Assembly: GCA_017430535.1 (NCBI GenBank)
Contig: JAFRMR010000003.1
Span: 310,001-374,000, forward strand
Direction of reading: 5' to 3'
Length of the DNA: 64,000 nt
DNA from: Clostridia bacterium
GTDB lineage: Bacteria > Bacillota > Clostridia > Oscillospirales > Acutalibacteraceae
Below, one piece after another: positions 548-61,302 of this stretch (its first letter is position 1; each line of letters opens with the position of its first letter). Below the pieces are notes generated by a model that worked only from the letters and a program-made list of their open reading frames with translations, had not been told where the DNA came from and did not search any database. The translations under genes and the position numbers were made by a program.

Positions 548-568
548 AAAAATTCACCACCTGAACTA

Positions 569-1567: not shown

Positions 1568-1806
1568 TATTTTCCCTCCGAGTGTTTCTTTTTCTTGGGC
1601 GGTACCGGGTCATACCCGCCCGGGAAGAGAATATTGCATCTCATAAGCCGAAGGAGGGTGAGAACAGAGCCTTTTAACGCTCCGTGAACCTCTATGGCCT
1701 CCAGGGCATACTGGGAGCAGGTGGGGTAATACCTGCACATTGGCGGAAGATGGGGAGAAATATGTTTTCTGTAAAAACCGATAAGAGCGAGAAGTAATTT
1801 TTTCAC
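1567..1806 (-). CDS. yidD: Membrane protein insertion efficiency factor YidD
   Basis: Small membrane-associated helper of YidC-dependent insertion. The 79-residue protein has the family's hallmark sequence: a hydrophobic [19 protein letters not shown] start, [19 protein letters not shown] with its conserved cysteines, and [17 protein letters not shown]. It ends in a lysine-rich tail (KKKKHSEGK). It lies 15 nt after rnpA and overlaps yidC by 1 nt, the standard rpmH-rnpA-yidD-yidC order. Confidence 0.96.
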
Positions 1807-1821
1807 TTTAAAGCTTTCTCC

Positions 1822-2163
1822 TCAATCCGTTCTGATTACGCCGAGTGAAACAAGATGCTCACGCATAACTGCAGCCACATCCTGCATTTTGGCATTTTTG
1901 GTTTTGAACCTTGCCACAAACACCAGATCCTTACCGCCTGCGCACTCGCTATTTAAAGAAGAGAAAGCCGCCTTGATAATACGACGGCATCTGTTTCTCT
2001 CAACTGCAGTGCCTATTTTTTTGGATGCAGTTATGCCCACACGGCAACTGCCCGTTTTATTGGGAAGGGCATAGGTTACCAGCACAGGTGAAACAGCTGA
2101 CTGCCCCCTGCCGTAGGCGCGGTGAAAATCCGAGTTTTGTTTTAAGGTTTCGGTAACGGCCAT
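1822..2163 (-). CDS. rnpA: Ribonuclease P protein component
   Basis: Protein subunit that helps the catalytic RNA mature tRNA 5' ends. The 113-residue protein has the expected length; the RNR signature reads ERNRCRRIIKAAF (about residues 55-67), preceded by VGITASKKIGTAVERN, and the N-terminus contains the substrate-binding FHRAYGRGQSAV block. It starts 9 nt after the rpmH stop and lies in the same operon. The RNA subunit (rnpB) is not in this window. Confidence 0.96.
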   Translation of the reverse strand: MAVTETLKQNSDFHRAYGRGQSAVSPVLVTYALPNKTGSCRVGITASKKIGTAVERNRCRRIIKAAFSSLNSECAGGKDLVFVARFKTKNAKMQDVAAVMREHLVSLGVIRTD

Positions 2164-2172
2164 TTCAGCAAA

Positions 2173-2307
2173 TCAATAGCTGAGCTGTTTTCTTCCTTTG
2201 GCTCTGCGGCGGGCAAGAACCTTACGGCCGTTTCTGTCGGACATTCTCTTTCTGAAACCGTGTTCCATTTTGCGATGACGTTTTTTGGGTTGATAAGTTC
2301 TTTTCAT
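2173..2307 (-). CDS. rpmH: 50S ribosomal protein L34
   Basis: A 44-codon gene read directly from the minus strand: [20 protein letters not shown] and on to [10 protein letters not shown], an almost textbook L34 with the expected length. A GGAGG ribosome site lies 8 nt before the ATG. It opens the leftward operon with rnpA, yidD, yidC and jag, behind a 110-nt leader and a good promoter at 2424-2453. Confidence 0.97.
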
Positions 2308-2423
2308 GTGTTAACCTCCGTTCACTGTTGAGTTATGTAATCAAGCGCAGGATTACCCGTAGATCCGCGCCCAATCTGCTTAATGTAGGGCAGGCACAAT
2401 ACGCCCAGGCCCTCGGAGTGTTA

Positions 2424-2453
2424 ATTATAATACGGGAAGCAGTAAAAAGTCAA
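2424..2453 (-). promoter_or_regulatory. Promoter of rpmH-rnpA-yidD-yidC-jag operon
   Basis: On the minus strand TTGACT (2448-2453) and a consensus TATAAT (2424-2429) are 18 nt apart. The expected transcript start is near 2417, giving a leader of about 110 nt before rpmH. Confidence 0.7.
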
Positions 2454-2491
2454 CAATTATTTTTTATTTACAATATTATTTTATAAAGTAC

Positions 2492-2520
2492 TTGAAAAAA
2501 TATCGATATTATGATAAAAT
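2492..2520 (+). promoter_or_regulatory. Promoter of dnaA-ftsY-rdgB-yhbY
   Basis: TTGAAA (2492-2497), 17-nt spacer, TAAAAT (2515-2520). The expected start is near 2527, giving a leader of about 100 nt before dnaA. Confidence 0.65.
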
Positions 2521-2629
2521 TTCAAAAATATTATGGGTATTATCGCCTTCAAGATAATAATCCGGGCAGCCGACAGACATAGAAACAAGCGTTGCTGCCG
2601 TTAAAACATATGATGAACAGGAGATAAAA

Positions 2630-3943
2630 ATGGAATCCTTGAATGAAATGTGGAATCTTGTTTGCGAAGAGCTAAAGCACTCGCTCAACGATGTTATATA
2701 CAACATCTGGTTTGAGCCCATGCAGCTTATAAGCTTTGACGGAGAAAAGGTTGTACTCAGCGTAAGCAGATTCAAAAAGCCCACCATTGAAAAACAGTTC
2801 GGTGATAATCTCAGGGACGCTTTCAAAAAGGTGCTTGGCTTTGATGCCGAAATAATACTTGAAGTGCCTCAGGATACCCCCGATAATACGGAAAAAGATT
2901 CATCAAGCAGAATCAGCGTTGATGATGAAGAAAACACCTTTGAAACCTTTGTTGTGGGTTCCTCAAACAAATTTGCCTTTGCCGCCGCAAAAGCGGTTGC
3001 AGAGGAGCCGGCTTTTGCGTATAACCCACTTTTCATTTACGGTTCCTCGGGTCTCGGCAAAACCCACCTTCTTTGCGCCATTAAAAATGCAATACTTGAG
3101 AGGAACCCCGATGCAAATGTTGTGTTTACAAGAGGCGAAGATTTTGTAAACCTTATAGTCAGCGGAATCCAGAAGGGCGCAATGTATATGAACAGCATCC
3201 ACGATAAGTTCAGAAACTGCGATGTTCTTCTTGTTGACGATATTCAGTTTATAGCCGGCAAAGAGCAGACCCAGGAAGAGTTTTTCCACACCTTCAATGC
3301 TCTTAAATCCGAAGGAAAGCAGATAGTGCTTATTTCGGATTCAATGCCCAAAGATATTGCTCTGCTTGAAGACAGGCTCCGCACAAGGTTTGAAATGGGC
3401 CTGCTTGCGGATATTCAGCCTCCCGATTTTGAAACAAGGATGGCCATAATTCAGCGCAAAGCATCCCACCTGGGCCTTGAACTGCCTCAGGATGTTACCG
3501 AATACCTGGCCGAAAAAGTTAAGAACAATATAAGGCAGCTTGAAGGAGCGGTAAAAAAGATTCACGCCCTTGTTAATCTTGAAGGTTCGCCTATAAATGT
3601 GGCAATGGCCCAGAGCGCAATAAAAGACCTTGCCGGCGAAGGGCTTCCCACATCGGAACTGGTTAAGAAGATTATATCCGAAACGGCCAGAACCTTTGCA
3701 ATCACTCAGGAGGATATAACCTCTAAAAAGAAGGATTCAAAAACCGCCAAAGCAAGGCAGATAGCCATTTATGCCATAAGGGAATGCACAGAACTCACCC
3801 AGCAGGAAATAAGCGAGTATTTTGGCGGGCGTGACCGCACCGCAATTCATTATGCCATAGAGAAAACCGCCCCCATGATTGAGAGAGATCCTAACCTGCG
3901 CAGGACGGTTGAAAACATAATCAAGAATGCCAAGGAGCAGTAA
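2630..3943 (+). CDS. dnaA: Chromosomal replication initiator DnaA
   Basis: AAA+ ATPase that binds and opens the origin. The 437 residues show domain I (WNLVCEELKHSLNDVIYNIWFEPM), a short acidic linker (about 82-103), Walker A GSSGLGKT at 138-145, Walker B LLVDDIQF at 200-207, a sensor/arginine-finger region (LLEDRLRTRFEMGL), and domain IV from about 345. The DNA-recognition signature is unusual: FGGRDRTAIHYAIEK (about 398-412) where nearly all DnaA proteins have GRDHTTV; the histidine is Arg403. RBS AGGAG precedes the ATG. The stop overlaps the ftsY start (TAATG). dnaN and recF, the usual followers, are absent. Confidence 0.97.
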   Translation: MESLNEMWNLVCEELKHSLNDVIYNIWFEPMQLISFDGEKVVLSVSRFKKPTIEKQFGDNLRDAFKKVLGFDAEIILEVPQDTPDNTEKDSSSRISVDDEENTFETFVVGSSNKFAFAAAKAVAEEPAFAYNPLFIYGSSGLGKTHLLCAIKNAILERNPDANVVFTRGEDFVNLIVSGIQKGAMYMNSIHDKFRNCDVLLVDDIQFIAGKEQTQEEFFHTFNALKSEGKQIVLISDSMPKDIALLEDRLRTRFEMGLLADIQPPDFETRMAIIQRKASHLGLELPQDVTEYLAEKVKNNIRQLEGAVKKIHALVNLEGSPINVAMAQSAIKDLAGEGLPTSELVKKIISETARTFAITQEDITSKKKDSKTAKARQIAIYAIRECTELTQQEISEYFGGRDRTAIHYAIEKTAPMIERDPNLRRTVENIIKNAKEQ

Positions 3944-4869
3944 TGGGATTTTTCAATAAGCTTAACAAAGGTCTCAAAAAAACAAGAGACAATATGTCCG
4001 GCGCCATCAATTCGGCGCTTACCGGCAAAAATGAAATAGATGACGAATTTTACGATGATCTGGAAGAAATACTGATTATGGCGGATGTGGGTGTTGAAAC
4101 ATCGGAACTGATCGTTTCACGCCTGAGAGATTCGGTATTCAAAAAGAATCTTCATAAAGCCAAAGATGTTACGGCTGAAATACAGAATATTGTTGCCGAT
4201 ATTCTTTCCGGAGGCCAGGAAGTTGATATGATAACCGTGCCTTCGGTTATACTGGTAATCGGTGTAAACGGCGTAGGTAAAACCACATCCATAGGCAAGC
4301 TTGCTGCTATGTTCAAGGATGAGGGTAAAAAGGTTATACTGGGCGCTGCGGATACTTTCCGCGCCGCCGCCATTGATCAGCTTCAGATCTGGGCGGACAG
4401 AGCAGGTGTGGATATAGTAAAGCACAAAGAGGGCGCCGACCCCGCCGCTGTTGTTTATGATACCATTGAAGCCGGCAAAGCAAGAAATGCAGATATCATT
4501 ATCTGCGATACAGCAGGCAGACTGCACAATAAAAAGTATCTTATGGATGAGCTGAACAAAATCTACCGTGTGGTTGACAGACAGCTCCCCTATGCTGACC
4601 GTGAAGTTCTGCTTGTGCTTGATGCAACAACAGGTCAGAACGCCGTAAACCAGGCTAAAGAGTTTATGGAGTGTGCCGAAATTACCGGCATAATCCTTAC
4701 CAAACTTGACGGCACCGCCAAAGGCGGCGTTGTGCTTGCTATAAAGAACGATCTTAAAGTTCCCGTTAAATTCATAGGCGTGGGTGAAGGAATAGATGAT
4801 ATGAGACCCTTCGTCCCCTCTGATTTTGCAGAAAGTCTGTTTGAAGCAAAAGAAAAAGAGGAAGACTGA
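3943..4869 (+). CDS. ftsY: Signal recognition particle receptor FtsY
   Basis: GTPase that docks SRP-ribosome complexes on the membrane. The 308 residues contain a short N domain and the full G domain: GVNGVGKTTSIGK (107-119), DTFRAAAIDQL, DTAGRLHNKKYLMDEL, TKLDGTAKGGV, and GVGEGIDDMRPF. The long acidic A domain found in E. coli is missing, as is usual in Firmicutes. It is coupled by a 1-nt overlap to dnaA, an unusual pairing since ftsY normally sits with smc. The partner Ffh is encoded at 33164. Confidence 0.96.
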   Translation: MGFFNKLNKGLKKTRDNMSGAINSALTGKNEIDDEFYDDLEEILIMADVGVETSELIVSRLRDSVFKKNLHKAKDVTAEIQNIVADILSGGQEVDMITVPSVILVIGVNGVGKTTSIGKLAAMFKDEGKKVILGAADTFRAAAIDQLQIWADRAGVDIVKHKEGADPAAVVYDTIEAGKARNADIIICDTAGRLHNKKYLMDELNKIYRVVDRQLPYADREVLLVLDATTGQNAVNQAKEFMECAEITGIILTKLDGTAKGGVVLAIKNDLKVPVKFIGVGEGIDDMRPFVPSDFAESLFEAKEKEED

Positions 4870-4870
4870 T

Positions 4871-5470
4871 ATGGATATTATCGTTGCCACCCACAATATG
4901 AAAAAGCGGGATGAGCTGTGCAGAATTCTCTCCCCTCTGGGTATAAATGTTCACCTGGCAGAGGATCTGGGAATAGAACTTACGGATGTTGAAGAAACCG
5001 GAACAACATTTGCGGAAAACGCTTTTCTGAAAGCCGAAAGTGGCTGTAAAGAAGGCGGACTCCCCTGCGTCGCGGATGACAGCGGCCTTGCCGTTGATTA
5101 CCTTAACGGGGAGCCGGGCGTTTACTCTGCAAGGTATTCCGGAGGCCACGGAAACGATGAAGCAAACACTCAGCTTGTGCTGAAAAACCTTGAAGGAGTT
5201 CCCTTTGAGAAAAGAGATGCTGCTTTTGTAAGCGCAGTTTGCCTTGTGTACCCGGATTCAACAAAGATTGAAGTAACCGGAAAATGCCGCGGGAAAATAG
5301 GATATGAGCCCCTGGGCACCGGCGGCTTCGGGTATGATCCCGTTTTTCTGCCGGAAGAATACGGTTACGAGAAAACCATGGCGCAGCTCACATCGGAAGA
5401 AAAGGATAAAATCAGCCACAGAGGCAGAGCCCTTCGTATGCTGGTTGAAAAAATCGGAGAATTAAAATGA
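4871..5470 (+). CDS. rdgB: XTP/dITP pyrophosphatase (RdgB/HAM1 family)
   Basis: Removes dITP, dXTP and related non-canonical nucleotides by hydrolysis to the monophosphate. The start is placed at ATG 4871 (MDIIVATHNMKKRDEL), which matches the family N-terminus and has AAGAGGAAG just upstream inside the end of ftsY; an in-frame ATG at 4826 would add an unlikely basic stretch. Family motifs: FAENAFLKAE, VADDSGLAVDYLNGEPGVYSAR, GTGGFGYDPVF, and SHRGRALRML. The ATG lies directly after the ftsY stop codon, and yhbY overlaps its 3' end by 4 nt. Confidence 0.95.
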   Translation: MDIIVATHNMKKRDELCRILSPLGINVHLAEDLGIELTDVEETGTTFAENAFLKAESGCKEGGLPCVADDSGLAVDYLNGEPGVYSARYSGGHGNDEANTQLVLKNLEGVPFEKRDAAFVSAVCLVYPDSTKIEVTGKCRGKIGYEPLGTGGFGYDPVFLPEEYGYEKTMAQLTSEEKDKISHRGRALRMLVEKIGELK

Positions 5471-5886
5471 CAAGTAAAGAAAGAGCTCAGTTCAGAGCCA
5501 TGGCCAACAGCCTTGAGCCGGAGTTTCACATAGGCAAAGGCGGTTTATCCGAAGGGGTAATAAACCAGACTCTGGATTCCTTCAACACAAAGGAGCTTAT
5601 TAAAATAAAGGTTCATCTTGAATCAGCCGAGGATACGCCACGGCACTACGCCGATATGCTTTCCGAGGCAACTTCAAGCCAGGTAATTCAGGTTATAGGC
5701 GGCGTAATAGTGCTCTACAAAGAGAACCCGGATCTTGATAAAAAGCAGGAAAAGAAGAAACCGGCAAAGAAATCAAAGCCCCTTTCAAACGTCAAAGCCA
5801 AAAGAGCGCTTGCCGAAAAGAAAGAAGCTGAAAAGAAAAAGGCCAAGCGGGATTTTTATGCCAAAAAAAGAGATAAAAATTTTTAA
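5467..5886 (+). CDS. yhbY: YhbY/CRS1 family ribosome-associated RNA-binding protein
   Basis: Residues 1-90 are a CRM (CRS1-YhbY) RNA-binding domain: LTSKERAQFRAMANSL-type start, HIGKGGLSEGVINQTLDSF with the conserved GKGG loop, ELIKIKVHLE, and a final strand QVIGGVIVLYKENP. YhbY-type proteins associate with pre-50S particles. After it comes a very basic Lys/Ala/Glu tail of about 45 residues, longer than in E. coli YhbY and probably flexible and RNA-binding. The ATGA overlap with rdgB indicates translational coupling. Confidence 0.9.
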   Translation: MTSKERAQFRAMANSLEPEFHIGKGGLSEGVINQTLDSFNTKELIKIKVHLESAEDTPRHYADMLSEATSSQVIQVIGGVIVLYKENPDLDKKQEKKKPAKKSKPLSNVKAKRALAEKKEAEKKKAKRDFYAKKRDKNF

Positions 5887-5900
5887 TTATATAAAATTAT

Positions 5901-5929
5901 TTGAAACATTTTCCTGTTTTTGTTACACT
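5901..5929 (+). promoter_or_regulatory. Promoter upstream of smpB
   Basis: TTGAAA (5901-5906), 17-nt spacer, TACACT (5924-5929), followed by GAAGGAG as the smpB ribosome site. It would give smpB its own short-leader transcript. Confidence 0.5.
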
Positions 5930-5951
5930 TATACTATAGGGAAGGAGAACA

Positions 5952-6416
5952 ATGGATAAAAAAGAAGGCATAAAGATAATAGCTCAGAACAAAAAAGCCT
6001 ACCATGAATACTTTGTTCTCGAAAAACTTGAAGCAGGCATTGAACTCTTCGGCACCGAGGTTAAATCCCTGCGCCAGGGCAAGGTAAACCTAAAAGACTC
6101 CTGGTGCTCTGTTAAAAACGGAGAAATGTTTGTTCACGGAATGCACATCAGCCCCTATGAACAGGGAAACATATTTAACAGAGACCCGATGAGGGTTAAA
6201 AAACTTCTTCTCCACAAAAGAGAAATAAAGCAGCTTTACGCCCGCACAAAGCAGGAAGGCCTTACGGTTATTCCCCTTTCGCTCTATTTCAGCAAGGGTA
6301 AAGCAAAGCTTGAGATAGGCCTTTGCAAAGGTAAAAAACTTTATGATAAGCGTGAGGTTGCCGCAAAGAAAGAAGCCCAGCGCAATATTGAGCGCTCCAT
6401 TAGAGTTAAACAATAA
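5952..6416 (+). CDS. smpB: SsrA-binding protein SmpB
   Basis: Binds tmRNA and delivers it to stalled ribosomes. The 154-residue length is typical. Motifs: [36 protein letters not shown] (OB-fold start), [24 protein letters not shown], and a basic C-terminal tail ([19 protein letters not shown]) that becomes helical in the mRNA channel. RBS GAAGGAG lies 6 nt upstream. The tmRNA gene follows after 5 nt, so protein and RNA partners are adjacent. Confidence 0.97.
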
Positions 6417-6421
6417 TATAC

Positions 6422-6770
6422 GGGGATGAAAGGATTTCGACGGGGAATCCGAGCCCGGATAAGCGAGTAGCGGTGCGGAACCGCTTTAAAAGCCGCAAAC
6501 TTAAATAATAAACGACACTAATAAAGTTGCACTTGCTGCTTAACTAAGCAGCCGTCTCCGCCGGGAGGACTGCGGCCCGGCACGAGGCGTCAATGAGCAG
6601 TGAACGTGAACGGATGATGACAGGTAATCCGTCATGAACAACCTGCCTACTGAAGCCCGGAGCCCGTTTACCGGCGCCGGGGAGAGGAAATGTCAAAGGG
6701 TAAAATACACTCGTAGAAAGTCCCTGCAGAGATTTTTCGGACGCGGTTTCGATTACCGCCATCTCCACCA
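6422..6770 (+). ncRNA. ssrA: Transfer-messenger RNA (tmRNA, SsrA)
   Basis: The 5' end GGGGATG pairs with CATCTCC before an encoded CCA at 6768-6770 (7-bp acceptor with one G-U). The T arm reads GCGGT-TTCGATT-ACCGC (6743-6759). The 5' segment contains GATTTCGACGGGG, typical of one-piece tmRNAs. The tag frame ends AAC GAC ACT AAT AAA GTT GCA CTT GCT GCT TAA (6511-6543), encoding ...NDTNKVALAA, a normal Clostridia-type degradation tag. The frame is closed upstream by TAA at 6502-6504, so the resume codon must be one of 6505, 6508 or 6511. Hairpin-rich pseudoknot segments follow. Confidence 0.97.
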
Positions 6771-6836
6771 CAAATAATTATCCATTGGTTTATATATTTC
6801 GGGAAAGAGAAAAACAAGAAAAGAAAGGACGGAAAG

Positions 6837-7955
6837 ATGAAGAAAGGTACAGTTATTATATCTGCTGCCATAACCGCGGTTATCATCGGCCTTATTGCTG
6901 TTTCCGCCGTTATCGGCGTTAAGTTCAGAAAAGAAGCAAAAACTGCCGAGGAAACTCCCGTCGGTTACAAAAACAGCATTGATTACGGCACAATAACAGA
7001 AGAGGAGCCGGCAATCCTCCCCGATTTCACAGAGGAAAACACTTTTGCCGACGATACCTCAACCGCAACAACCTCCGCCCCGGCGGCAACAGTTACGGCA
7101 CCTAAAGTTTTCACCACAAAAAATATTACTGCCGCTCAGAAAAAAATAACCAAAGCGGTTACAACCGTAAAAGAAACAGTTAAAGCGGATAACGGAAGCA
7201 CCGCGCAGGTTGTTGTTGAGGAAGGCGTTACAGTACCGGTACTTGAAGATGCCGAGCACGGAAAAGCAGCAACTGTTGATACTACCGTAGCAGATTCGGA
7301 GCTCCCCAAAGATATGTATTTTTCAGGCCTTTACAGCATGGGCTATGATGTAATCGGGCCTAAAGAATTCATATACAACGATGATACCGACCCCAAGTGT
7401 ATGCAGAAAAACTTCGGCTATAATGTTCTTTACGATGCCGGAGCAAAGCTTATAGACTTCAGCATTGAGACCACCAGAATCAAGTTTGATTACGGTGATA
7501 AATCCTATATGCTTCAGCTCTGGAAGGGTCAGTATATTTCCGGTGATATTGGCACCGTAGGCGGAGAAGTAGGCCTTTACACAAGAGCTAAAAACTCTGT
7601 TTCGGCCATCGGTCATTACGACTGTGCCGCCCAGGAAGACTGGCTCAATATGGAAATGACAGTTCTCTGGGATGAAGATGACAACGGCGTTTACAAAGCT
7701 CAGCTTACAAGAAGGTACGCCCCCCACTGGTGGGAAACCGGATATGTTGACGGTCAGCTCAAAGACAGGAATGATTCCAACAGCCTCAAGATTCTCTGCA
7801 GAATGACCTTCTTAACCCAGGAGCAGGCAACACTTTGCGTTAACGCAATGATTAAAAACGGATTCAAAAAGGTTTCATCTTTTGACCCTACCGGAAGCGA
7901 CCTTGTGAAACAGTACGGCAAAGATGTAATCTATGTATGGCATAAAGTAAGATAA
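6837..7955 (+). CDS. Exported or membrane-anchored DUF4474 protein, copy 1
   Basis: Function unknown. Residues 5-30 form a signal anchor (IISAAITAVIIGLIAVSAVIGV), followed by a Thr/Ala-rich, poorly structured linker to about 130 and a folded domain from about 170 to 372. That domain resembles DUF4474: DFSIETTRIKFDYGDKSYMLQLWKGQY, then EVGLYTR, HYDCAAQEDWLNMEMTVLW, and APHWWETGYVDGQL. The paralogue 20 nt downstream shares the same architecture and motifs. RBS AAGGACGGAAAG precedes the ATG. It begins 66 nt after tmRNA, and I see no convincing promoter of its own. Confidence 0.8.
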   Translation: MKKGTVIISAAITAVIIGLIAVSAVIGVKFRKEAKTAEETPVGYKNSIDYGTITEEEPAILPDFTEENTFADDTSTATTSAPAATVTAPKVFTTKNITAAQKKITKAVTTVKETVKADNGSTAQVVVEEGVTVPVLEDAEHGKAATVDTTVADSELPKDMYFSGLYSMGYDVIGPKEFIYNDDTDPKCMQKNFGYNVLYDAGAKLIDFSIETTRIKFDYGDKSYMLQLWKGQYISGDIGTVGGEVGLYTRAKNSVSAIGHYDCAAQEDWLNMEMTVLWDEDDNGVYKAQLTRRYAPHWWETGYVDGQLKDRNDSNSLKILCRMTFLTQEQATLCVNAMIKNGFKKVSSFDPTGSDLVKQYGKDVIYVWHKVR

Positions 7956-7975
7956 CATATACGGAGGAGTTTACT

Positions 7976-9103
7976 ATGAACAAAAAAATTCTCGCTCTCA
8001 TCATCAGCGCAGTTGTAGTTATCGGCGGCGCAGGCACAGCAGTTGCTATTTTAAGAAAGCCCGCAACCCAGCCTGAAGAAACTACAGCGGCAATCACCGA
8101 AGAAGCTTCTGTAACAGAAGAAGCCGGTATAGTTGAAGATGTTACATTACCCGAAGGCGCTTCTGTTGATGATCAGGGCAACGCAGTTGTAACCGACGCT
8201 CAGGGCCAGACCTCTGTTGTTGCTACAATTGCAAATGCGGCAAAACAGATAGCTCAGACCACCAAATCAGTTGCTGCATCAACAACCGCAGCTGCAACAA
8301 ACAGCAGATTCGGCAACCGCGGTGCTGCTGCTACCACAACCACAAAAGCAGCCGCAAACAAAAAGACAACCACCACAACAACAACCAAAAAGAGCAGTGA
8401 TGCTACCGCCGGCACAGGTATTGTTGACAGATATGTAGGTCCCGAAGCCGAGCAGTCAATACTGGGCTACAGAAAAGCTCCCGAAGGCTATTATTACTGC
8501 GATGATAAGGATAACTGGCAGAAAGGTACCGGCTACAATGAAGTTTACGATAAGTGGGCTCCTGTTGCCGCTATGTACATTGACCAGGTAAGAATCCGTT
8601 TCAGATACGAAAATAAAAACTGGATGATTCAGCTCTGGAAGGGTCAGTACGGCTACCTTCTTATCGGTGCCGAAATAGGCGTTTACACCTGCGCCCTTGA
8701 TGAATACAACGGCGGCGTGGGAGATATCAACCACTTTGACGTTGCCGATAAAGAAGATTGGCTCTACATGCAGCTTGACTGCTACTACTGCCAGGGCGGC
8801 AACGGCCAGTATAAGAAGATATTTACCAGACCTTATGATAAGTATTGGTGGGCAACCGGCTTTGTTAAGGGCCAGCTTACCAAATACACTGCCCCCAGAA
8901 CCGAACTCAAAACCAAGAACAGAATCACATTCAAGAGTGAAGATCAGGCCAACATCTTTGTTCAGGGCCTTAAGAACTGTGGCTTCCGCAGAGCAGCCGG
9001 CTCCGACCAGCTTGTTGACGATTCATACTTTGCCAGCGGCGCAGATGTATGGGTTCTCTGGTCAACTCTTTACAACGACAGCTTCGTTGGCTACGGTTCA
9101 TAA
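7976..9103 (+). CDS. Exported or membrane-anchored DUF4474 protein, copy 2
   Basis: Tandem paralogue of the preceding gene. An N-terminal hydrophobic segment (ILALIISAVVVIGGAGTAVAI) is followed by an Ala/Thr linker with long runs of threonine (about residues 100-145) and then the domain with YIDQVRIRFRYENKNWMIQLWKGQYG, EIGVYTCALDEY, HFDVADKEDWLYMQLDCYY and KYWWATGFVKGQL. The Thr-rich spacer suggests a surface-exposed domain held away from the membrane or wall. It ends in an intrinsic terminator, so the two copies form one unit. The shared IQLWKGQYG and WW..G motifs are the best clues to a ligand-binding surface, but no function is known. Confidence 0.8.
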   Translation: MNKKILALIISAVVVIGGAGTAVAILRKPATQPEETTAAITEEASVTEEAGIVEDVTLPEGASVDDQGNAVVTDAQGQTSVVATIANAAKQIAQTTKSVAASTTAAATNSRFGNRGAAATTTTKAAANKKTTTTTTTKKSSDATAGTGIVDRYVGPEAEQSILGYRKAPEGYYYCDDKDNWQKGTGYNEVYDKWAPVAAMYIDQVRIRFRYENKNWMIQLWKGQYGYLLIGAEIGVYTCALDEYNGGVGDINHFDVADKEDWLYMQLDCYYCQGGNGQYKKIFTRPYDKYWWATGFVKGQLTKYTAPRTELKTKNRITFKSEDQANIFVQGLKNCGFRRAAGSDQLVDDSYFASGADVWVLWSTLYNDSFVGYGS

Positions 9104-9127
9104 TCACATCTGTAATAAGCTTTTTAA

Positions 9128-9155
9128 AACCTGCGCTTACCGCGCAGGTTTTTCT
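9128..9155 (+). terminator. Intrinsic terminator after DUF4474 pair
   Basis: Stem AACCTGCGC (9128-9136) and GCGCAGGTT (9142-9150) with a 5-nt loop, followed by a T-rich tail. Confidence 0.85.
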
Positions 9156-9215
9156 TTATTTCTACTGTGTCAATACAGGGGCTTTTTCGTGCTGTATTTT
9201 TGGTTAATTATTGCA

Positions 9216-9244
9216 TTGACATCACCGTATATATAATGTAATAT
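9216..9244 (+). promoter_or_regulatory. Promoter of glyQS-oad operon
   Basis: Consensus TTGACA (9216-9221), 17-nt spacer, TAATAT (9239-9244). No T-box or other leader fits in the roughly 25-nt leader that follows. Confidence 0.75.
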
Positions 9245-9277
9245 ATAGCAAAAATGTTATAAGGGGTAAAATCGCTT

Positions 9278-10657
9278 ATGAATAACGAAGATAAATCAAT
9301 GGAAAAAATCGTTGCCCTGTGTAAAAACAGAGGATTCATTTTTGCAGGCAGTGATATTTACGGCGGACTTGCCAACACCTGGGATTACGGTCCTCTTGGC
9401 ACACGCCTTAAAAATAATGTAAAAGACACCTGGAGAAAAAGATTCATCCAGGAAAGGAAAAACAGCTACGAAGTTGACGCCGATATTCTTATGCACCCCA
9501 GAGTATGGGAAGCAAGCGGCCATGTTGCCAGCTTTTCCGACCCTCTGCTTGACTGCAAAGAATGCAAAATGCGCCACAGAGCTGATAACCTTATAGATGA
9601 CTTTGACCCGGACGCTCACGCCGACGGAATGACAAAGCAGGAAATGTTTGAGTATATCAAAGCTCACTCAATCCCCTGCCCTCACTGCGGAAAGCACAAC
9701 TTTACGGATATAAGAGAATTCAACCTTATGTTCCAGACCTTCCGCGGAGTAACAAATGATGCAAAAAGCATTATCTACCTCCGCCCCGAAAACGCTCAGG
9801 GTGAATATGTAAACTATATGAATGTTCAGCGCTCTATGAGAGCCAAACTTCCCTTCAGCATCGGTCAGATAGGCAAGGCATTCAGAAATGAAATTACCCC
9901 CGGCAACTTCACTTTCAGAACCATTGAATTTGAGCAGATGGAATTCCAAACCTTCTGCAAAGAAGGCACAGATAACGAGCTTTACGATTATTTCAAGGAA
10001 TACGGCCGCAAATACTTTATGGATCTGGGCATTCCCGAAGAACATCTCAGATTCCACGATCACGAAAAGCTTGCACACTATGCCAAAGCCGCCTGCGATA
10101 TAGAGTTCCTGTTCCCCTTCGGCTGGGGCGAAATAAACGGAACCCATAACAGGACTGATTTTGACCTTACAAGGCATCAGGAATACAGCGGCAAGAACCT
10201 TGAATACCTTGACCCTGAAACCAACGAAAAATTTATTCCCTATATAATTGAATCCACCTACGGCCTTGACAGAACCGTGCTGGCTCTTCTTTGCGAGGCC
10301 TATGATGAAGAAGTTATTGATGCTGAAAAGAACGATGTAAGAGTTGTTCTTCACCTGAGCCCCGCAGTAGCTCCCTTCAAAGCTGCAGTGCTTCCCCTTT
10401 CAAAGAAGCTCAGCGAAGATGCCCTCAAAGTTTATGATGCTCTTTGCGGTAAGTTTATGGTTGATTTTGATGAGACCGGCTCCATAGGCAAGCGTTACCG
10501 CAGAGAAGATGAAATAGGCACTCCCTTCTGCATCACCTACGATTTTGACTCTCAGGAAGATAACTGCGTAACGGTAAGAGAGAGAGATTCCATGGAACAG
10601 GTCAGAATTCCCATTACCGAGCTCGAAAACTACATTTCTTCAAAAATCACTTTTTAA
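9278..10657 (+). CDS. glyQS: Glycyl-tRNA synthetase, dimeric class II type
   Basis: Charges tRNA-Gly. The 459 residues follow the alpha2 bacterial/eukaryal-type enzyme: N-terminal [27 protein letters not shown], a zinc-like pair of CxxC sites (CKECKMRH and CPHCGKHN), motif 2 around [27 protein letters not shown], motif 3 [14 protein letters not shown], and a C-terminal anticodon-binding domain (VHLSP-type start, [11 protein letters not shown]). The alternative GlyQ/GlyS tetramer is not encoded here. oadA follows after 20 nt without a terminator, so the two are probably co-transcribed. Confidence 0.96.
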
Positions 10658-55243: not shown

Positions 55244-55272
55244 TTGACAACGGTGCCTGTAAGTGCTAAAAT
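55244..55272 (+). promoter_or_regulatory. Promoter of the T-box aromatic operon
   Basis: Consensus TTGACA (55244-55249), 17-nt spacer, TAAAAT (55267-55272), about 20 nt before the T-box leader. Confidence 0.8.
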
Positions 55273-55289
55273 ACGTTTTAGTCAATTAA

Positions 55290-55550
55290 AACAAAGGCAG
55301 TGACGAAAAGCAGTAAGTTATTGAAACTGTTCAGAGAAACGCCGGCCGGTGAAAGGCGCCGCAGCAGAGATAACCGAATTCATTTCCGAGCCGTATTGCT
55401 GAAGCTGCAAAGCGGTGTGTAGGCGGTATCGGGTGCGCCCGTTAAAGCGCTTGGCGGAACACTCCGCCGTGAGACCGCAAAGGCGGTAAATTGAGGTGGT
55501 ACCGTGGGTTATTCCCGCCCTCAGAGCATTATGCTCCGGGGGCTTTTTTA
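55290..55550 (+). promoter_or_regulatory. T-box riboswitch (tRNA-sensing antitermination leader), probable Phe specificity
   Basis: Antiterminator read base by base: GAGG (55493-55496) pairs with CCTC (55519-55522), bulge TGGTACC (55497-55503, the canonical 7-nt T-box bulge), GTGGG (55504-55508) pairs with CCCGC (55514-55518), loop TTATT. The competing terminator is GCCCTCAGAGCAT/ATGCTCCGGGGGC (55517-55543) with TTTTTT. Stem I: GCAGTA (55310-55315) with TATTGC (55394-55399), GTTAT (55317-55321) with ATAAC (55370-55374). In the specifier loop GAA (55376-55378) is followed by TTC (55379-55381) then A, giving Phe. The UGGU bulge calls for a tRNA with A73, as tRNA-Phe has; tRNA-Trp usually has G73. 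Confidence 0.9.
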
Positions 55551-55576
55551 TTACCTGCGGTGTTAAGGAGGATAAA

Positions 55577-57214
55577 ATGATTATTACCGAATTACTTGAA
55601 AAGAACGCAAGACTTTACAAAAATGAAACGGCTCTTGTAGAAATCAACCCTTCCGATGAGAGGGATAAAGCAACAACATGGCGTGAAGCTTCCCTTATAG
55701 AAACCGCTATGCCGAACTCCCCTTACAGGCGGGAAATGACCTGGTCGGAATTTGATATAAAGGCAAACAAGATTGCAAACCTTCTGCTGAGCAGAAGCAC
55801 AAAAAGAGGCACTAAAGTAGGTATTCTGCTTATGAACTGCCTTGAGTGGCTGCCCATATACTTCGGCGTTCTTAAAGCGGGATGCATTGCCGTTCCCCTT
55901 AACTACAGATACGCCGCCGATGAGATACAGTACTGCTGCGACCTTGCGGATATAGAAGTACTTGTTTTCGGCCCGGAATTTACGGGAAGAGTAAATGAAA
56001 TACATAACGATATGCCCAAAGTTAAGGCAATGTTCTTTGTAGGGTCCGACGGACCGGAATACACAGAAGACCTTATGTACCTTATTAACTTCTGCTCATC
56101 CATTGCTCCACCGGTTGAGATAAAAGAGACGGATTATTCTGCAATCTATTTTTCATCCGGCACCACAGGTTTCCCCAAGGCCATACTGCACGATCACCAC
56201 GGCCTTTACTGCTCCTGCCTCACTGAGCAGAATCACCACCGCCAGACAAGAGACGATGTTTTTCTCTGCATTCCTCCACTTTACCACACCGGCGCAAAGA
56301 TGCACTGGTTCGGCTCCCTGCTTTCCGGCAGCAAAGCAGTAATCCTCAGGGGCGTAAAACCGGAGTGGATACTCAGAGCCGTAACCGAGGAAAAATGCAC
56401 AATAGTATGGCTTCTTGTGCCCTGGGCACAGGATATACTTGATGCCATTGAAAGCGGCAAAATCGACCTGAACCACTATCTGCTGGATCAGTGGAGGCTT
56501 ATGCACATAGGCGCTCAGCCCGTTCCCCCCAGCCTTATACACAGGTGGAAAAAATACTTCCCCAATCATCAGTATGACACAAACTACGGACTTTCAGAAT
56601 CCCTTGGGCCCGGCTGTGTTCACCTTGGCATAGAAAACACGGAAAAAGTCGGCGCCATCGGCATACCCGGCTATATGTGGGAAGCCAAAATTGTGGATGA
56701 AAACGATGAAGAGGTTTCTCAGGGAGAGGTCGGCGAGCTCTGCGTTAAGGGCCCCGGCGTTATGAAATGCTATTATAAAAATCCCGATGCTACCAACGAA
56801 ATCCTTAAAGGCGACTGGCTCTATACCGGCGATATGGCTGTAAAAGACGAGGATGGATTTATCACCCTGGTTGACCGCAAAAAGGATGTTATCATAAGCG
56901 GCGGCGAAAACATTTACCCCGTTCAGATTGAAGCGTTCCTGCGTAAGCACGATAAGATTAAGGATGTAGGCGTTATCGGACTGCCGGATCAGAGGCAGGG
57001 TGAAATTACCGCAGCGATTATCGAGCTTAAAGAGGGAGCTTCCTGCACAGAGGATGAAATCAATGATTTCTGCCAGGAACTTCCGAGATATAAGAGACCC
57101 CGTAAAATCATTTTTGCTCCCGTTCCCAGAAACGCTACGGGCAAAATTGAAAAACCCAAACTCCGTGAAATATACTGCCACGGACGGCTTGTGGAAGTAC
57201 AGAACAGAAGCTGA
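55577..57214 (+). CDS. AMP-dependent acyl-CoA synthetase/ligase
   Basis: Activates a carboxylic acid to its CoA thioester through an acyl-adenylate. 545 residues; A3 motif FSSGTTGFPKAILH, FLCIPPLYHTGAKMHW, YGLSESLGPG, DWLYTGDMAVKDEDGFITLVDRKKDVIISGGENIYP, and the catalytic Lys in NATGKIEKPKLRE. ATG 55577 is set by AAGGAGG 7 nt upstream; the frame stays open back into the T-box but that part is leader. Closest in pattern to medium-chain or aryl acyl-CoA synthetases. First gene of the T-box operon. Confidence 0.92.
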   Translation: MIITELLEKNARLYKNETALVEINPSDERDKATTWREASLIETAMPNSPYRREMTWSEFDIKANKIANLLLSRSTKRGTKVGILLMNCLEWLPIYFGVLKAGCIAVPLNYRYAADEIQYCCDLADIEVLVFGPEFTGRVNEIHNDMPKVKAMFFVGSDGPEYTEDLMYLINFCSSIAPPVEIKETDYSAIYFSSGTTGFPKAILHDHHGLYCSCLTEQNHHRQTRDDVFLCIPPLYHTGAKMHWFGSLLSGSKAVILRGVKPEWILRAVTEEKCTIVWLLVPWAQDILDAIESGKIDLNHYLLDQWRLMHIGAQPVPPSLIHRWKKYFPNHQYDTNYGLSESLGPGCVHLGIENTEKVGAIGIPGYMWEAKIVDENDEEVSQGEVGELCVKGPGVMKCYYKNPDATNEILKGDWLYTGDMAVKDEDGFITLVDRKKDVIISGGENIYPVQIEAFLRKHDKIKDVGVIGLPDQRQGEITAAIIELKEGASCTEDEINDFCQELPRYKRPRKIIFAPVPRNATGKIEKPKLREIYCHGRLVEVQNRS

Positions 57215-57244
57215 AATATACTAAACAAAGAGAGTTGATAACAA

Positions 57245-58972
57245 ATGAAATCACTTATGCTCGGCAATGAAGCCTTTGCAAGAGGCCTTTATGAAGCCGG
57301 ATGTAAATTCGTATCATCATACCCGGGAACTCCCAGCACTGAAATTACGGAGTTTGCGGCAAAATATTCCGAGATATATGCAGAATGGGCTCCAAATGAA
57401 AAGGTGGCTATGGAGAGCGCCTTCGGAGCATCCCTCAGCGGAAACAGAAGCTTTTGCGGAATGAAACATGTTGGCCTTAATGTGGCTGCAGATCCGCTTT
57501 TTACTATTTCTTACACCGGAGTTAACGCCGGTATGATTATTGCCGTTGCCGATGACCCAGGCATGCACTCATCACAAAATGAGCAGGATTCCCGCCACTA
57601 TGCTATTGCTTCAAAGCTCCCAATGCTGGAGCCGGCGGACTCTGAAGAAGTGCTTGAATACACAAAACTTGCTTACAGCCTTTCCGAGGAATATGACTGC
57701 CCTGTTATTATGAAGATGTGCACAAGGATTGCACACTCCCAGAGCCCGGTACAGACAGGCGAAAGACAGGTAGGGCCCCTTAAGCCCTATGAAAAGAACC
57801 CCCAGAAATATATTATGATGCCCGGCTATGCAAAGCTTAAGCACCCGGTAGTTGAGCAGAGAACTGCAAAACTCACAGAGTTTGCAGAAACCTCATCCCT
57901 TAACAGAATTGAGGAAGGCGAAGACAATTCAATCGGCATAATTACATCTTCTACTTCATATCAGTATGTAAAAGAGGTATGCGGCGGAAAGTATCCCGTG
58001 CTGAAGCTGGGTATGGTAAATCCTCTGCCTGTTAAACTGATAAAAGATTTTGCCGCAAAAGTCGGTAAAGTTATTATTGTTGAAGAGCTTGACGATATTA
58101 TTGAAACTCACTGCAAAAAAATCGGTGTTGAATGCACCGGCAAAGAGCTTTTCGGATATATTGGTGAATTCAGCCAGAATATGATTGCCGAAAAACTGGG
58201 CTTTGATTCAAAGCAGTTCAAAACCATAGAGGAAAATATACCTCCGAGGCCTCCGGTTATGTGCGCCGGCTGCCCTCACAGAGGACTTTATTACATACTT
58301 AAGAAAAACAAGGTTAATGCCATAGGCGATATAGGATGCTACACACTGGGCGCTGTGGCTCCCCTCTCAGCCCTTGACACTACGGTATGTATGGGCGCTT
58401 CCGTTTCCGGGCTTCACGGATTCAACAAGCTCTCACCGGAAAACGAAAAAAACAGCGTTGCCGTAATAGGCGATTCCACTTTTATGCACTCTGGCATTAC
58501 AGGTCTTGTGAATATTGCTTACAATGAATCCAACTCCACGGTTATTATACTTGACAACTCCATTACCGGTATGACCGGCCATCAGCAAAACCCCACCACC
58601 GGCTACAATCTTAAAGGAGACCCCTGCACAAAAATTGACCTTGAAGCTCTTTGCAGATCTGTAGGTATTAAAAGAGTGAGAGTGGTTGACCCCTACAACC
58701 TTAAAGAATGTGACGAAGCTCTTAAAGAGGAACTTGCGGCAAACGAACCCTCTGTAATTATTTCAAGAAGGCCCTGCGCACTGCTTAAATATGTTAAGCA
58801 CAACGGGCCCATTGAAGTTAATGAAGATAAGTGCATAGGCTGTAAATCCTGCATGCGTATCGGCTGCCCCGCCATAAGCATGAAAGACGGAAAAGCTTTA
58901 ATTGACGCTACCCTTTGCACGGGCTGCGGAGTATGCAAACAGCTTTGCCCCAAAGATGCCATAGGCTGCTGA
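57245..58972 (+). CDS. iorA: Indolepyruvate:ferredoxin oxidoreductase, alpha subunit
   Basis: Thiamine-diphosphate enzyme interconverting aryl-pyruvate + CoA and aryl-acetyl-CoA + CO2 with ferredoxin. 575 residues: LMLGNEAFARGLYEAGCKFVSSYPGTPSTEI (pyrimidine domain), GMKHVGLNVAADPLFTISYTGV, ADDPGMHSSQNEQDSR, then MCAGCPHRGLYYILKK, GDIGCYTLGAVAPL, and the TPP motif VIGDSTFMHSGITGLVNIAYNESN. Two 4Fe-4S motifs close the protein: CIGCKSCMRIGCPAI and CTGCGVCKQLCPKDA. Substrates are aryl-pyruvates (indole, phenyl, hydroxyphenyl); the T-box points to phenylpyruvate. Confidence 0.95.
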   Translation: MKSLMLGNEAFARGLYEAGCKFVSSYPGTPSTEITEFAAKYSEIYAEWAPNEKVAMESAFGASLSGNRSFCGMKHVGLNVAADPLFTISYTGVNAGMIIAVADDPGMHSSQNEQDSRHYAIASKLPMLEPADSEEVLEYTKLAYSLSEEYDCPVIMKMCTRIAHSQSPVQTGERQVGPLKPYEKNPQKYIMMPGYAKLKHPVVEQRTAKLTEFAETSSLNRIEEGEDNSIGIITSSTSYQYVKEVCGGKYPVLKLGMVNPLPVKLIKDFAAKVGKVIIVEELDDIIETHCKKIGVECTGKELFGYIGEFSQNMIAEKLGFDSKQFKTIEENIPPRPPVMCAGCPHRGLYYILKKNKVNAIGDIGCYTLGAVAPLSALDTTVCMGASVSGLHGFNKLSPENEKNSVAVIGDSTFMHSGITGLVNIAYNESNSTVIILDNSITGMTGHQQNPTTGYNLKGDPCTKIDLEALCRSVGIKRVRVVDPYNLKECDEALKEELAANEPSVIISRRPCALLKYVKHNGPIEVNEDKCIGCKSCMRIGCPAISMKDGKALIDATLCTGCGVCKQLCPKDAIGC

Positions 58973-58987
58973 AAGGAGATTTGAATT

Positions 58988-59560
58988 ATGAAAACTAAAA
59001 ACATAATGATAGTCGGTGTAGGCGGCCAGGGCACTCTGCTTGCAAGCAAACTTTTGGGCAAAATACTCATAGCCAAGGGTTATGATGTAAAAGTAAGCGA
59101 GGTTCACGGCATGAGCCAGCGCGGCGGCAGTGTTGTAACCTATGTACGTTACGGCGATAAAGTTTACTCCCCTATTATAGACAAAGGCGAAGCGGACATT
59201 ATACTCTCATTTGAGATGCTTGAAGCCGCAAGGTGGGTGGAGTACCTTGCCCCCGGCGGAAGAATAATAACAAACACAAGGCAGACCAACCCTATGCCCG
59301 TTATTACCGGTGCTGCGGTTTACCCGGAAAATCTTGAAGGAAAGATTAAGGACCTCGGTATTACCGCCGACTGCTTTGATGCCCTTGAGCTGGCAAATGA
59401 AGCCGGCTCATCCAAAGCAGTTAATCTGGTACTTCTCGGTAAGCTGTCAAACTATTTCGACTTTTCCGAAGAAGACTGGATGACAGCCATAGAACAGTCC
59501 GTACCCCCGAAATTCCTTGAAATAAACAAAAAAGCTTTTGAACTTGGAAAAAATATCTGA
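58988..59560 (+). CDS. iorB: Indolepyruvate:ferredoxin oxidoreductase, beta subunit
   Basis: Gamma-type subunit of the 2-oxoacid:ferredoxin oxidoreductase. 190 residues: NIMIVGVGGQGTLLASKLLGKILIAKGYDVKVSEVHGMSQRGGSVVTYVRYG is the complete family N-terminus. RBS AAGGAG. 15 nt after iorA. Confidence 0.96.
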   Translation: MKTKNIMIVGVGGQGTLLASKLLGKILIAKGYDVKVSEVHGMSQRGGSVVTYVRYGDKVYSPIIDKGEADIILSFEMLEAARWVEYLAPGGRIITNTRQTNPMPVITGAAVYPENLEGKIKDLGITADCFDALELANEAGSSKAVNLVLLGKLSNYFDFSEEDWMTAIEQSVPPKFLEINKKAFELGKNI

Positions 59561-59602
59561 CAGAAAAGAGTTTTTAAATAAACGGAGAAAGAGGAAAATA
59601 AA

Positions 59603-60901
59603 ATGCAAAAGTATTTTCAGCAGGAAATCGAAACCATGCCTCGTGAGCAGATAAAAAGTCTGCAAAACGAGAAGTTTCTCAAACAGATTCAGCATGTCTG
59701 GAACGACTGCCCCGATTACCGCAGAAAAATGGAAAAAGCCGGCGTAACCCCCGATGACATCAAGAGTATTGATGACATTTCAAAGCTTCCGTTCCTGAGC
59801 AAAGATGACCTTAGAGAGGGTTATCCTTATGCAATGCTGGCAAAGCCCCTTTCGGAGTGTGTGAGAATTCACTCAACTTCAGGCACAACCGGCAAAAGAG
59901 TTATTGCCTATTATACCCAGCACGATATTGACCTTTGGGATGAGTGCTGCGCAAGAGCTCTTGTTGCAGCAGGAGCAGACAAAAACGATGTTGTTCATGT
60001 TGCTTACGGCTTTGGCCTTTTCACAGGCGGAGCAGGCCTTAACGGCGGCTCACACAAGCTGGGCTCCCTTACCCTTCCCATGAGCTCAGGCAACACAGAC
60101 AGACAGCTTCAGTTTATGACTGACCTTGGGGCCACGATACTCTGTAGTACCCCTTCTTATGCTGCTTATCTTGCAGAAAGCATAAAAGAAAGAGGGCTCA
60201 GGGATCAAATTAAACTCAAGGCCGGAATATTCGGCGCAGAGGCCTGGAGCGAAGAAATGCGCAGAGATATTGAAGCAAATCTCGGAATCAAGGCATACGA
60301 TATCTACGGTCTTACGGAAATAAGCGGCCCGGGCGTCTCCTTTGAATGTTCCGAGCAGACCGGAATGCACATTAACGAAGACCACTTCTATGCCGAAATA
60401 ATCGACCCCGATACCCTTGAAGTATTGCCTTACGGCGAACAGGGCGAACTTGTTTTCACCTGTCTTGATAAGGAAGCTTTCCCGGTTATCAGGTACAGAA
60501 CAAAAGATATCTGTGTGCTTACAAAAGAAACCTGCTCCTGCGGACGCACATTTATCAAAATGGTAAAACCCAGAGGCAGAAGCGATGATATGCTCATTAT
60601 CAAGGGCGTAAATGTATTCCCCTCTCAGATTGAAACCGTTCTTATTGATCAGGGATATCAGGCAAACTATCAGATTATTGTTGACAGAGTCAATAATTCG
60701 GATACTCTTGACATTAATGTTGAAATGACACAGGAGAAGTTCACGGATAATCTTGGCGAAGTAGCCGAAATGGAAAAGAAACTTGTCTCGGCCCTTAAAG
60801 CTATGCTGGGGATTTACGCAAAAGTTCATCTTGTTGCGCCCAAAACAATTGCCAGAAGCGAGGGCAAGGCAGTAAGGGTAATTGATAACAGAAAAATATA
60901 A
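59603..60901 (+). CDS. paaK: Phenylacetate-CoA ligase (PaaK type)
   Basis: Makes phenylacetyl-CoA (or another aryl-acetyl-CoA) from the acid, ATP and CoA. 432 residues, the usual length: LPFLSKDDLREGYPY, the PaaK-specific VRIHSTSGTTGKRVIAYYTQHDID, VAYGFGLFTGGAGLNGGSHKLG, YDIYGLTEISGPGVSFEC, and FPVIRYRTKDICVLT with GRSDDMLIIKGVNVFPSQIE. RBS GGAGAAAGAGG. Often paired with Ior genes in anaerobes; here it supplies or uses the iorAB product. Confidence 0.94.
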   Translation: MQKYFQQEIETMPREQIKSLQNEKFLKQIQHVWNDCPDYRRKMEKAGVTPDDIKSIDDISKLPFLSKDDLREGYPYAMLAKPLSECVRIHSTSGTTGKRVIAYYTQHDIDLWDECCARALVAAGADKNDVVHVAYGFGLFTGGAGLNGGSHKLGSLTLPMSSGNTDRQLQFMTDLGATILCSTPSYAAYLAESIKERGLRDQIKLKAGIFGAEAWSEEMRRDIEANLGIKAYDIYGLTEISGPGVSFECSEQTGMHINEDHFYAEIIDPDTLEVLPYGEQGELVFTCLDKEAFPVIRYRTKDICVLTKETCSCGRTFIKMVKPRGRSDDMLIIKGVNVFPSQIETVLIDQGYQANYQIIVDRVNNSDTLDINVEMTQEKFTDNLGEVAEMEKKLVSALKAMLGIYAKVHLVAPKTIARSEGKAVRVIDNRKI

Positions 60902-60915
60902 GGGGGGAAAAGAAA

Positions 60916-61302
60916 ATGACAGAAAAACAGATTTCCGTTTTTTTGGAAAACAGATACGGCCAGCTTCATGAAATTACAGACATACTGGCCAGGGCAAATA
61001 TCAACCTTAAGGCACTCAACATTGCCGAAACCAGAGATTACGGCATTGTAAGAATCCTTGTTGATGATGTGGCAAAGGCCACCGATGCTCTTATTGCGGA
61101 CGGATGCGTGGTTTCCGTAAACCCTGTTCAGGTTGTTGCCGTACCTAATGTTGCAGGCGGGCTGAATGATGTTTTAGGCAAAATTGCCGATGCCAATATA
61201 GATATTGAATATATGTATTCAACAGTTGACGGCGACAATGGAAATGCAAAGCTGGTATTCAAAGTAAGTGATGAAGAAAAATTCAAAGAAATACTCGGCT
61301 GA
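60916..61302 (+). CDS. Tandem ACT-domain amino-acid-binding protein
   Basis: 128 residues, two ACT domains: ISVFLENRYGQLHEITDILARANINLKALNIAETRDYGIVRIL (first) and VVAVPNVAGGLNDVLGKIADANIDIEYMYSTVD (second). Small ACT proteins after paaK are a recurring pair in Clostridia and probably sense an aromatic amino acid to control pathway enzymes. RBS GGGGGGAAA. Last gene before a terminator. Confidence 0.92.
   Translation: MTEKQISVFLENRYGQLHEITDILARANINLKALNIAETRDYGIVRILVDDVAKATDALIADGCVVSVNPVQVVAVPNVAGGLNDVLGKIADANIDIEYMYSTVDGDNGNAKLVFKVSDEEKFKEILG

Follow-up and report, generated by a model that had tools for sequence, protein, structure and literature searches.

A phenylalanine-type T-box leader heads an IorAB–PaaK operon that probably makes phenylalanine from scavenged phenylacetate in a member of the Acutalibacteraceae

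Phenylalanine (Phe) synthesis from phenylacetate has been reported for rumen bacteria (Allison 1965, as cited in the available part of PMC7356843). For Bacteroides, it was argued in 2026 that an adenosine monophosphate (AMP)-forming ligase lying beside indolepyruvate:ferredoxin oxidoreductase (IOR) may be a sign of biosynthesis (PMC13285125). A further described acid-activating enzyme is MbcS of S. aureus, a ligase for 2-methylbutyrate and isobutyrate (available part of PMC10026030). Here we describe an operon in which genes for two acyl- or aryl-coenzyme A (CoA) ligases and both IOR subunits follow a T-box leader RNA. It lies in a 64,000-nucleotide stretch of a Clostridia bacterium genome (GCA_017430535.1, contig JAFRMR010000003.1, positions 310,001–374,000), hereafter the window, whose numbering we use. 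Judged by title and abstract opening, none of the papers listed describes such genes under a T-box, an earlier mention in T-box surveys being possible. The word start "phenylacet" is absent from the available main text of two papers, one on a T-box database and one a review of C. difficile riboswitches, and the available parts of PMC5171806 and PMC11304471 contain nothing decisive on this question.

The leader region carries the following elements:

55244–55272, forward strand: sigma-70-type promoter TTGACA-17-TAAAAT, 11 of 12 consensus matches and the top score in the region, by consensus match alone
55291–55525, forward strand: T-box leader RNA of the transcriptional type, RF00230, 108.7 bits against a gathering cut-off of 93
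55379–55381, forward strand: specifier UUC (Phe), within the specifier loop of Stem I, in the context GAA-UUC-A
55497–55500, forward strand: UGGU in the T-box bulge, complementary to ACCA, the 3' end of tRNA-Phe
55517–55549, forward strand: intrinsic terminator, a hairpin at 55517–55543 followed by six T (U-run), alternative to the antiterminator

The entire length of the RF00230 covariance model was aligned to the leader, with an E value of 4.4e-23 in the 64 kb window. At the foot of Stem I is a GAG, and the UUC triplet is placed 6 nucleotides 5' of it, one base ahead of the lower stem. The host tRNA-Phe has the anticodon GAA, A73 and the 3' end ACCA, and thus pairs with both UUC and UGGU, in agreement with the Phe-type T-box that the initial annotation of this DNA had read from the letters. 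The terminator folds with −18.6 kcal/mol (z −3.8), a stability equalled by none of 200 shuffled sequences, and it overlaps the 3' arm of the antiterminator predicted from the Rfam alignment, as competing structures do. The promoter match is weak by itself, the same scan having returned 19 promoter-like sites where shuffled sequences gave 9.8. Across the genome, ten T-boxes matched at E ≤ 0.001, five of them above the Rfam cut-off. The triplet at the same position, read by eye, fits the expected amino acid in six other T-boxes of the genome, those of pheS (UUC), valS (GUA), alaS (GCC), trpB (UGG), cysE-cysS (UGC) and thrS (ACC). The names of these control genes were assigned by eye from their translations, and the cysE-cysS leader has CGG instead of GAG.

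Downstream of the leader, five genes are separated by gaps of 14–42 nucleotides:

55577–57214, forward strand: LigA, AMP-forming acyl/aryl-CoA ligase (PF00501, PF13193)
57245–58972, forward strand: IorA, alpha subunit of indolepyruvate/arylpyruvate:ferredoxin oxidoreductase (TIGR03336, 711.5 bits, cut-off 650.9)
58988–59560, forward strand: IorB, beta subunit (NF005325, 277.6 bits, cut-off 230)
59603–60901, forward strand: PaaK-like phenylacetate-CoA ligase (TIGR02155, 503.4 bits, nearly full length)
60916–61302, forward strand: protein with a pair of ACT domains, ACT_8 (PF19571, 81.4 bits; PDB 2f06, E 2.6e-24)

The promoter, T-box, terminator and genes (55577–61302) thus stand in the order first proposed for them. 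Each IOR subunit scores above a curated equivalog cut-off; IorB also reaches 242 bits for NF005322 (cut-off 237), yet falls below that of TIGR03334 (189.8 against 205.8). No solved-structure relative of IorA was found at 1e-10. The PaaK-like protein matches solved PaaK chains with E values of 7e-117 to 4e-118. LigA is likely an arylacetate ligase, and perhaps 4-hydroxyphenylacetate is its acid, as the specifiers associated with it in relatives (see below) suggest. A PADLOC run on the ACT protein gave no match.

A Phe-specific T-box implies that the genes are expressed when Phe runs short, as suits a synthetic and not a degradative role. We hold with considerable confidence that this is a T-box-controlled arylacetate salvage operon. 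Scavenged phenylacetate is probably the acid from which it builds Phe backwards, and this suggests that genes commonly read as aromatic degradation serve synthesis here. The initial annotation had proposed Phe synthesis from phenylacetate, and its direction is most likely right, being well supported by the Phe specifier, by the recurrence of Phe and tyrosine (Tyr) specifiers in relatives and by an isoleucine (Ile)/valine (Val) parallel in the same genome. Phe as the only product proved too narrow and has to be widened to Phe and Tyr.

We infer the direction, the substrates, the aminotransferase step and the role of the ACT protein as follows. When uncharged tRNA-Phe accumulates, its anticodon would pair with UUC in Stem I and its ACCA end with UGGU; this pairing would stabilise the antiterminator and let transcription go on. 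PaaK, together with LigA acting on the same or a hydroxylated acid, would then form the arylacetyl-CoA with adenosine triphosphate. From this ester, IorAB would make phenylpyruvate or 4-hydroxyphenylpyruvate with reduced ferredoxin and CO2, and an aminotransferase encoded elsewhere would yield Phe or Tyr. The ACT protein would probably sense the amino acid product.

The synthetic direction of the Phe operon is best argued from its counterpart for branched-chain amino acids:

L013 (C6:97001–116000), 373–9919: Ile and Val T-boxes with a ligase-ligase-branched-chain aminotransferase (BCAT)-ATPase-like-Vor operon

The two T-boxes read AUC (Ile) and GUA (Val); they score 83.5 and 82 bits, below the Rfam cut-off, with E values of about 1e-18. 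Each precedes a gene for a fusion of helix-turn-helix, cupin and AMP-ligase parts, whose best curated match is MbcS (NF047394) at 441 and 400 bits, short of the cut-off of 850. On the 3' side of the ligases lie a BCAT gene scoring above its cut-off, a ferredoxin-like gene (recognised by eye) and three Vor-like genes, of which VorB is above its cut-off and the beta subunit below all cut-offs listed. The specifiers recur in relatives. All 19 leaders fetched for the first ligase gene read Ile (18 by rule and L270 by eye). For the second, Val was read in 28 of the 29 leaders with a T-box core (own genome included) from 30 loci, 19 by rule and nine by eye (L227, L228, L230, L233, L234, L237, L243, L248 and L251); the exceptions are L231, which is incomplete, and L252, which has no core.

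The genome, 96.9% complete, gave no match to ilvD, and its only match to ilvC was a 20.1-bit KARI hit below the cut-off; all 14 control genomes have both genes. Among 394 genomes, ilvC was found in 5 of 54 with two copies of the ligase gene, 31 of 95 with one and 168 of 245 with none (p 3e-16 for two copies against none, uncorrected for kinship). To judge by its gene content, this bacterium thus appears to follow the same scheme under its Ile and Val T-boxes, with branched-chain volatile fatty acids as the starting material for branched-chain amino acids. A separate locus on C6, at about 67–71 kb (L004/L011), has a CUC (leucine) T-box followed by a leuA-like gene and by one for a fusion of an AMP-binding ligase with a xylose-isomerase-like TIM barrel; it is perhaps an isovalerate branch.

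The same comparison bears on the idea that the aryl-CoA ligases serve another need tied to Phe/Tyr supply, for instance a supply of acyl-CoA to lipids or to a secondary metabolite. The branched-chain ligases have their best curated match in MbcS, which in S. aureus does feed fatty acid synthesis (available part of PMC10026030), and LigA reached the cut-off of no listed family that would assign its specificity. We nevertheless find this explanation highly improbable: iorAB is placed between the two ligase genes of the operon, and in this genome, where neither ilvC nor ilvD was found, the Ile/Val operon also contains BCAT and Vor genes.

To return to arylacetate salvage, the arrangement recurs in relatives of the source bacterium, which inhabit animal guts. 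A PaaK search of 150 genomes of the family matched 103 of them at E ≤ 1e-100, and 60 places were picked among the matches listed. A wider PaaK scan supplied 80 named contigs, the best 80 of 595 candidates. A LigA search of 394 genomes of the order matched 141 at E ≤ 1e-200, and the 30 best loci and 20 chosen upstream stretches were examined. T-box cores were sought by pattern, several loci ending close to the gene at a contig end. They were found at 5 of the 60 and 10 of the 80 PaaK loci, and at 16 of the 30 (own genome included) and 7 of the 20 ligA loci. In the first set the core lies ahead of paaK at L055, L062, L067 and L072 and ahead of ligA at L091; that of L084 was left uncounted, as it sits after the operon, ahead of a pheS-like gene. 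L062 also has two TPP (thiamine pyrophosphate) riboswitch matches in tandem (780–1040, minus), downstream of paaK and on its strand. The ten loci of the second set carry 11 leaders, two of them at L146.

Rfam matched all 16 leaders of the 15 core-bearing PaaK-set loci at 92–129 bits (L154, at 92.1, slightly under the cut-off) and those of 14 ligA-set loci at 86–140 bits (L197, at 86.2, under it); this confirmation covers neither L210 nor the seven leaders of the 20-stretch ligA set. The total is 39 distinct leaders including that of the window, no two of them 90% or more identical over more than 120 bases. Among the best 80 of 595, the closest named relative found is the metagenome-assembled genome RUG14154 (PaaK 91% and LigA 80% identical); we take the RUG of its name to stand for rumen.

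These 39 leaders, lying beside paaK-ACT, ligA or a linked symporter gene, comprise 16 that read UUC (Phe) and 23 that read UAC (Tyr, two of them uncertain). None clearly reads any other amino acid. The reading goes with the gene that follows: directly ahead of paaK-ACT all 11 leaders are Phe, whereas ahead of ligA 22 of 27 are Tyr and five are Phe (this window, L198, L206, L214 and L215). The difference between paaK- and ligA-headed leaders is significant (Fisher p 4e-6, or 7e-6 without the two uncertain leaders, uncorrected for kinship). UAC and UUC differ by a single A/U exchange, and a tree of 29 LigA proteins, 20 of them with a read specifier, requires at least five changes between Phe and Tyr, or at least four without L213. 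Two sister pairs have opposite specifiers, namely this window with L114 (support 99/98) and L206 with L211 (support 100/99).

The one leader ahead of a symporter gene reads Tyr. Symporter genes lie in or adjoining the operon at L072, L091 and L146; the L072 protein, the only one run, belongs to SSF by Pfam. At L146 the symporter-like gene has its own Tyr T-box and paaK a Phe T-box. From their position, a possible role of these symporter-like genes is arylacetate uptake.

The strict rule (6 nucleotides before GAG) covers 19 of the 39 leaders, namely this window, L114, L117, L136 and 15 of L195–L215 (L210 being incomplete); within this set L207, L208, L210, L212 and L215 were read by eye, with decoys in L208 and L215. 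For the remaining 20, in which the closing GAG is moved or substituted, the triplet was taken by eye from its GAA-NNN context; these are the 11 before paaK, L091, the first of L146, L274–L279 and L281. In the Rfam alignment, the specifier columns hold the triplet read here for most of the leaders shown, with L055, L148 and L155 one base off. Choosing specifiers by lower-stem pairing was dropped, as it failed on the control leaders. As a check on the 39, pairing was best as read in 25 (at least 4 pairs), tied in L195 and L206, and best with 3 pairs in L214. It was uninformative for eight, where the 5' strand was wrong or none was found (L055, L155, L159, L200, L210, L212, L215 and L277). Another offset was preferred for L209, L213 and L276; L213 and L276 would then become ACA (threonine), and both were retained as uncertain Tyr.

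The frequency of Tyr among ligA-headed leaders, the closest named relative included, raises the possibility of a mainly tyrosine pathway, from 4-hydroxyphenylacetate to Tyr, in which the Phe specifier of the window is a base change that barely affects the products. The single A/U difference and its repeated occurrence on the LigA tree (at least five times, four without L213) agree with this. The operon described here, however, includes paaK, and every leader directly before paaK-ACT reads Phe. We consider this explanation doubtful, though still to be reckoned with; it overlaps with the one we prefer, the Phe and Tyr readings both being biosynthetic. Within arylacetate salvage, the pattern of specifiers suggests that the enzymes probably serve both phenylacetate and 4-hydroxyphenylacetate, with Tyr a likely co-product, or the likely main product in most relatives.

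A number of observations weigh against a salvage operon for Phe. The leader of RUG14154 has UAC where the window has UUC, the two leaders being similar around that loop, and most ligA and paaK relatives have no sign of a T-box within the stretches examined. LigA reached the cut-off of none of the 25 curated families listed, and the PaaK protein lies under the TIGR02155 equivalog cut-off of 646.3, hence its classification as PaaK-like and not as PaaK proper. The operon includes no aminotransferase gene. The genome also has a chorismate mutase-prephenate dehydratase (CM-PDT pheA), in a cluster with aroB, aroC, aroA, tyrA, DAHP synthase and aroE (genes of the cluster named by eye). A link between the ligA T-box and a missing prephenate dehydratase was also considered and rejected: the enzyme is kept in 14 of 16 genomes with such a T-box, a share close to that among all genomes sampled (333 of 394). 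Finally, IorAB is able to run oxidatively, and the genome has a second set of these genes that may be a degradative version:

L019 (C10:258001–272000), 3064–9209: second iorAB-paaK cluster, with a flavin (FMN/FAD) oxidoreductase and a 4HBT thioesterase

Its IorA is 39% identical to that of the operon, and no T-box match was found on contig C10.

Breakdown of aromatic amino acids would have IorAB oxidise phenylpyruvate to phenylacetyl-CoA, with the ligases reversed or acting on other acids. IOR has been described in amino acid fermentation (PMC13285125), and the C10 cluster without a T-box match could be the form used for it. For the operon of the window we judge breakdown very unlikely, as a Phe/Tyr T-box would turn it on precisely when the amino acid is exhausted, and AMP-forming ligases favour formation of the CoA ester, an argument made in PMC13285125.

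With pheA and the shikimate cluster present, the salvage operon would be a second source of Phe. The absence of pheA and shikimate steps, which the initial annotation had suggested looking for, is thus not found, and loss of pheA as the operon's reason is ruled out. Two genomes of the genus coded g250, G441 and G476 (both of 100% completeness), have a ligA T-box, one Phe and one Tyr, and neither is among the listed prephenate dehydratase matches; the salvage route may be their sole source of Phe. Elsewhere in the window, a transfer-messenger RNA gene lies at 6422–6770 on the forward strand, with the tag DTNKVALAA.

Taken together, the aromatic and branched-chain loci lead us to favour, with fair assurance, a tRNA-sensing salvage regulon. 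In it, Phe, Tyr, Ile and Val T-boxes would control acyl-CoA ligases that feed the reductive carboxylation of fermentation acids, replacing the de novo pathway for branched-chain amino acids and working alongside that for aromatic ones, and the aromatic leader would flip between Phe and Tyr by single-base changes since the same enzymes make both. T-box specifiers would then give the likely product of each operon straight from the sequence. For IorAB-PaaK and Vor operons, open to a reading as degradation of amino acids or aromatics, the direction could in this way be predicted for each genome in turn. The repeated change of T-box specificity between two amino acids is also a natural case amenable to testing in vitro.

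Compared with the RF00230 T-boxes of biosynthesis and tRNA-synthetase genes, the leader is alike in RNA family, specifier, UGGN and terminator/antiterminator, and in turning genes on when the tRNA is uncharged; it differs in what it regulates, namely arylacetate-CoA ligases and a 2-oxoacid:ferredoxin oxidoreductase. IOR has been proposed to serve amino acid synthesis in methanogens and suggested to do so in Bacteroides (PMC13285125), where iorAB likewise adjoins an AMP-forming arylacetate-CoA ligase; there the direction was argued from the type of ligase, and the main text mentions no T-box. The reductive carboxylation of phenylacetate and of branched-chain volatile fatty acids described for rumen anaerobes (Allison et al., 1960s; available part of PMC7356843) is the same chemistry as we propose, in which an acid and CO2 give a 2-oxo acid that is then aminated. 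That work, according to the same part of the source, is physiology, whereas genes, regulation and specifiers are assigned here. MbcS of S. aureus is the best NCBIfam match of the branched-chain ligases, which here are fused to helix-turn-helix and cupin parts and stand under Ile and Val T-boxes.

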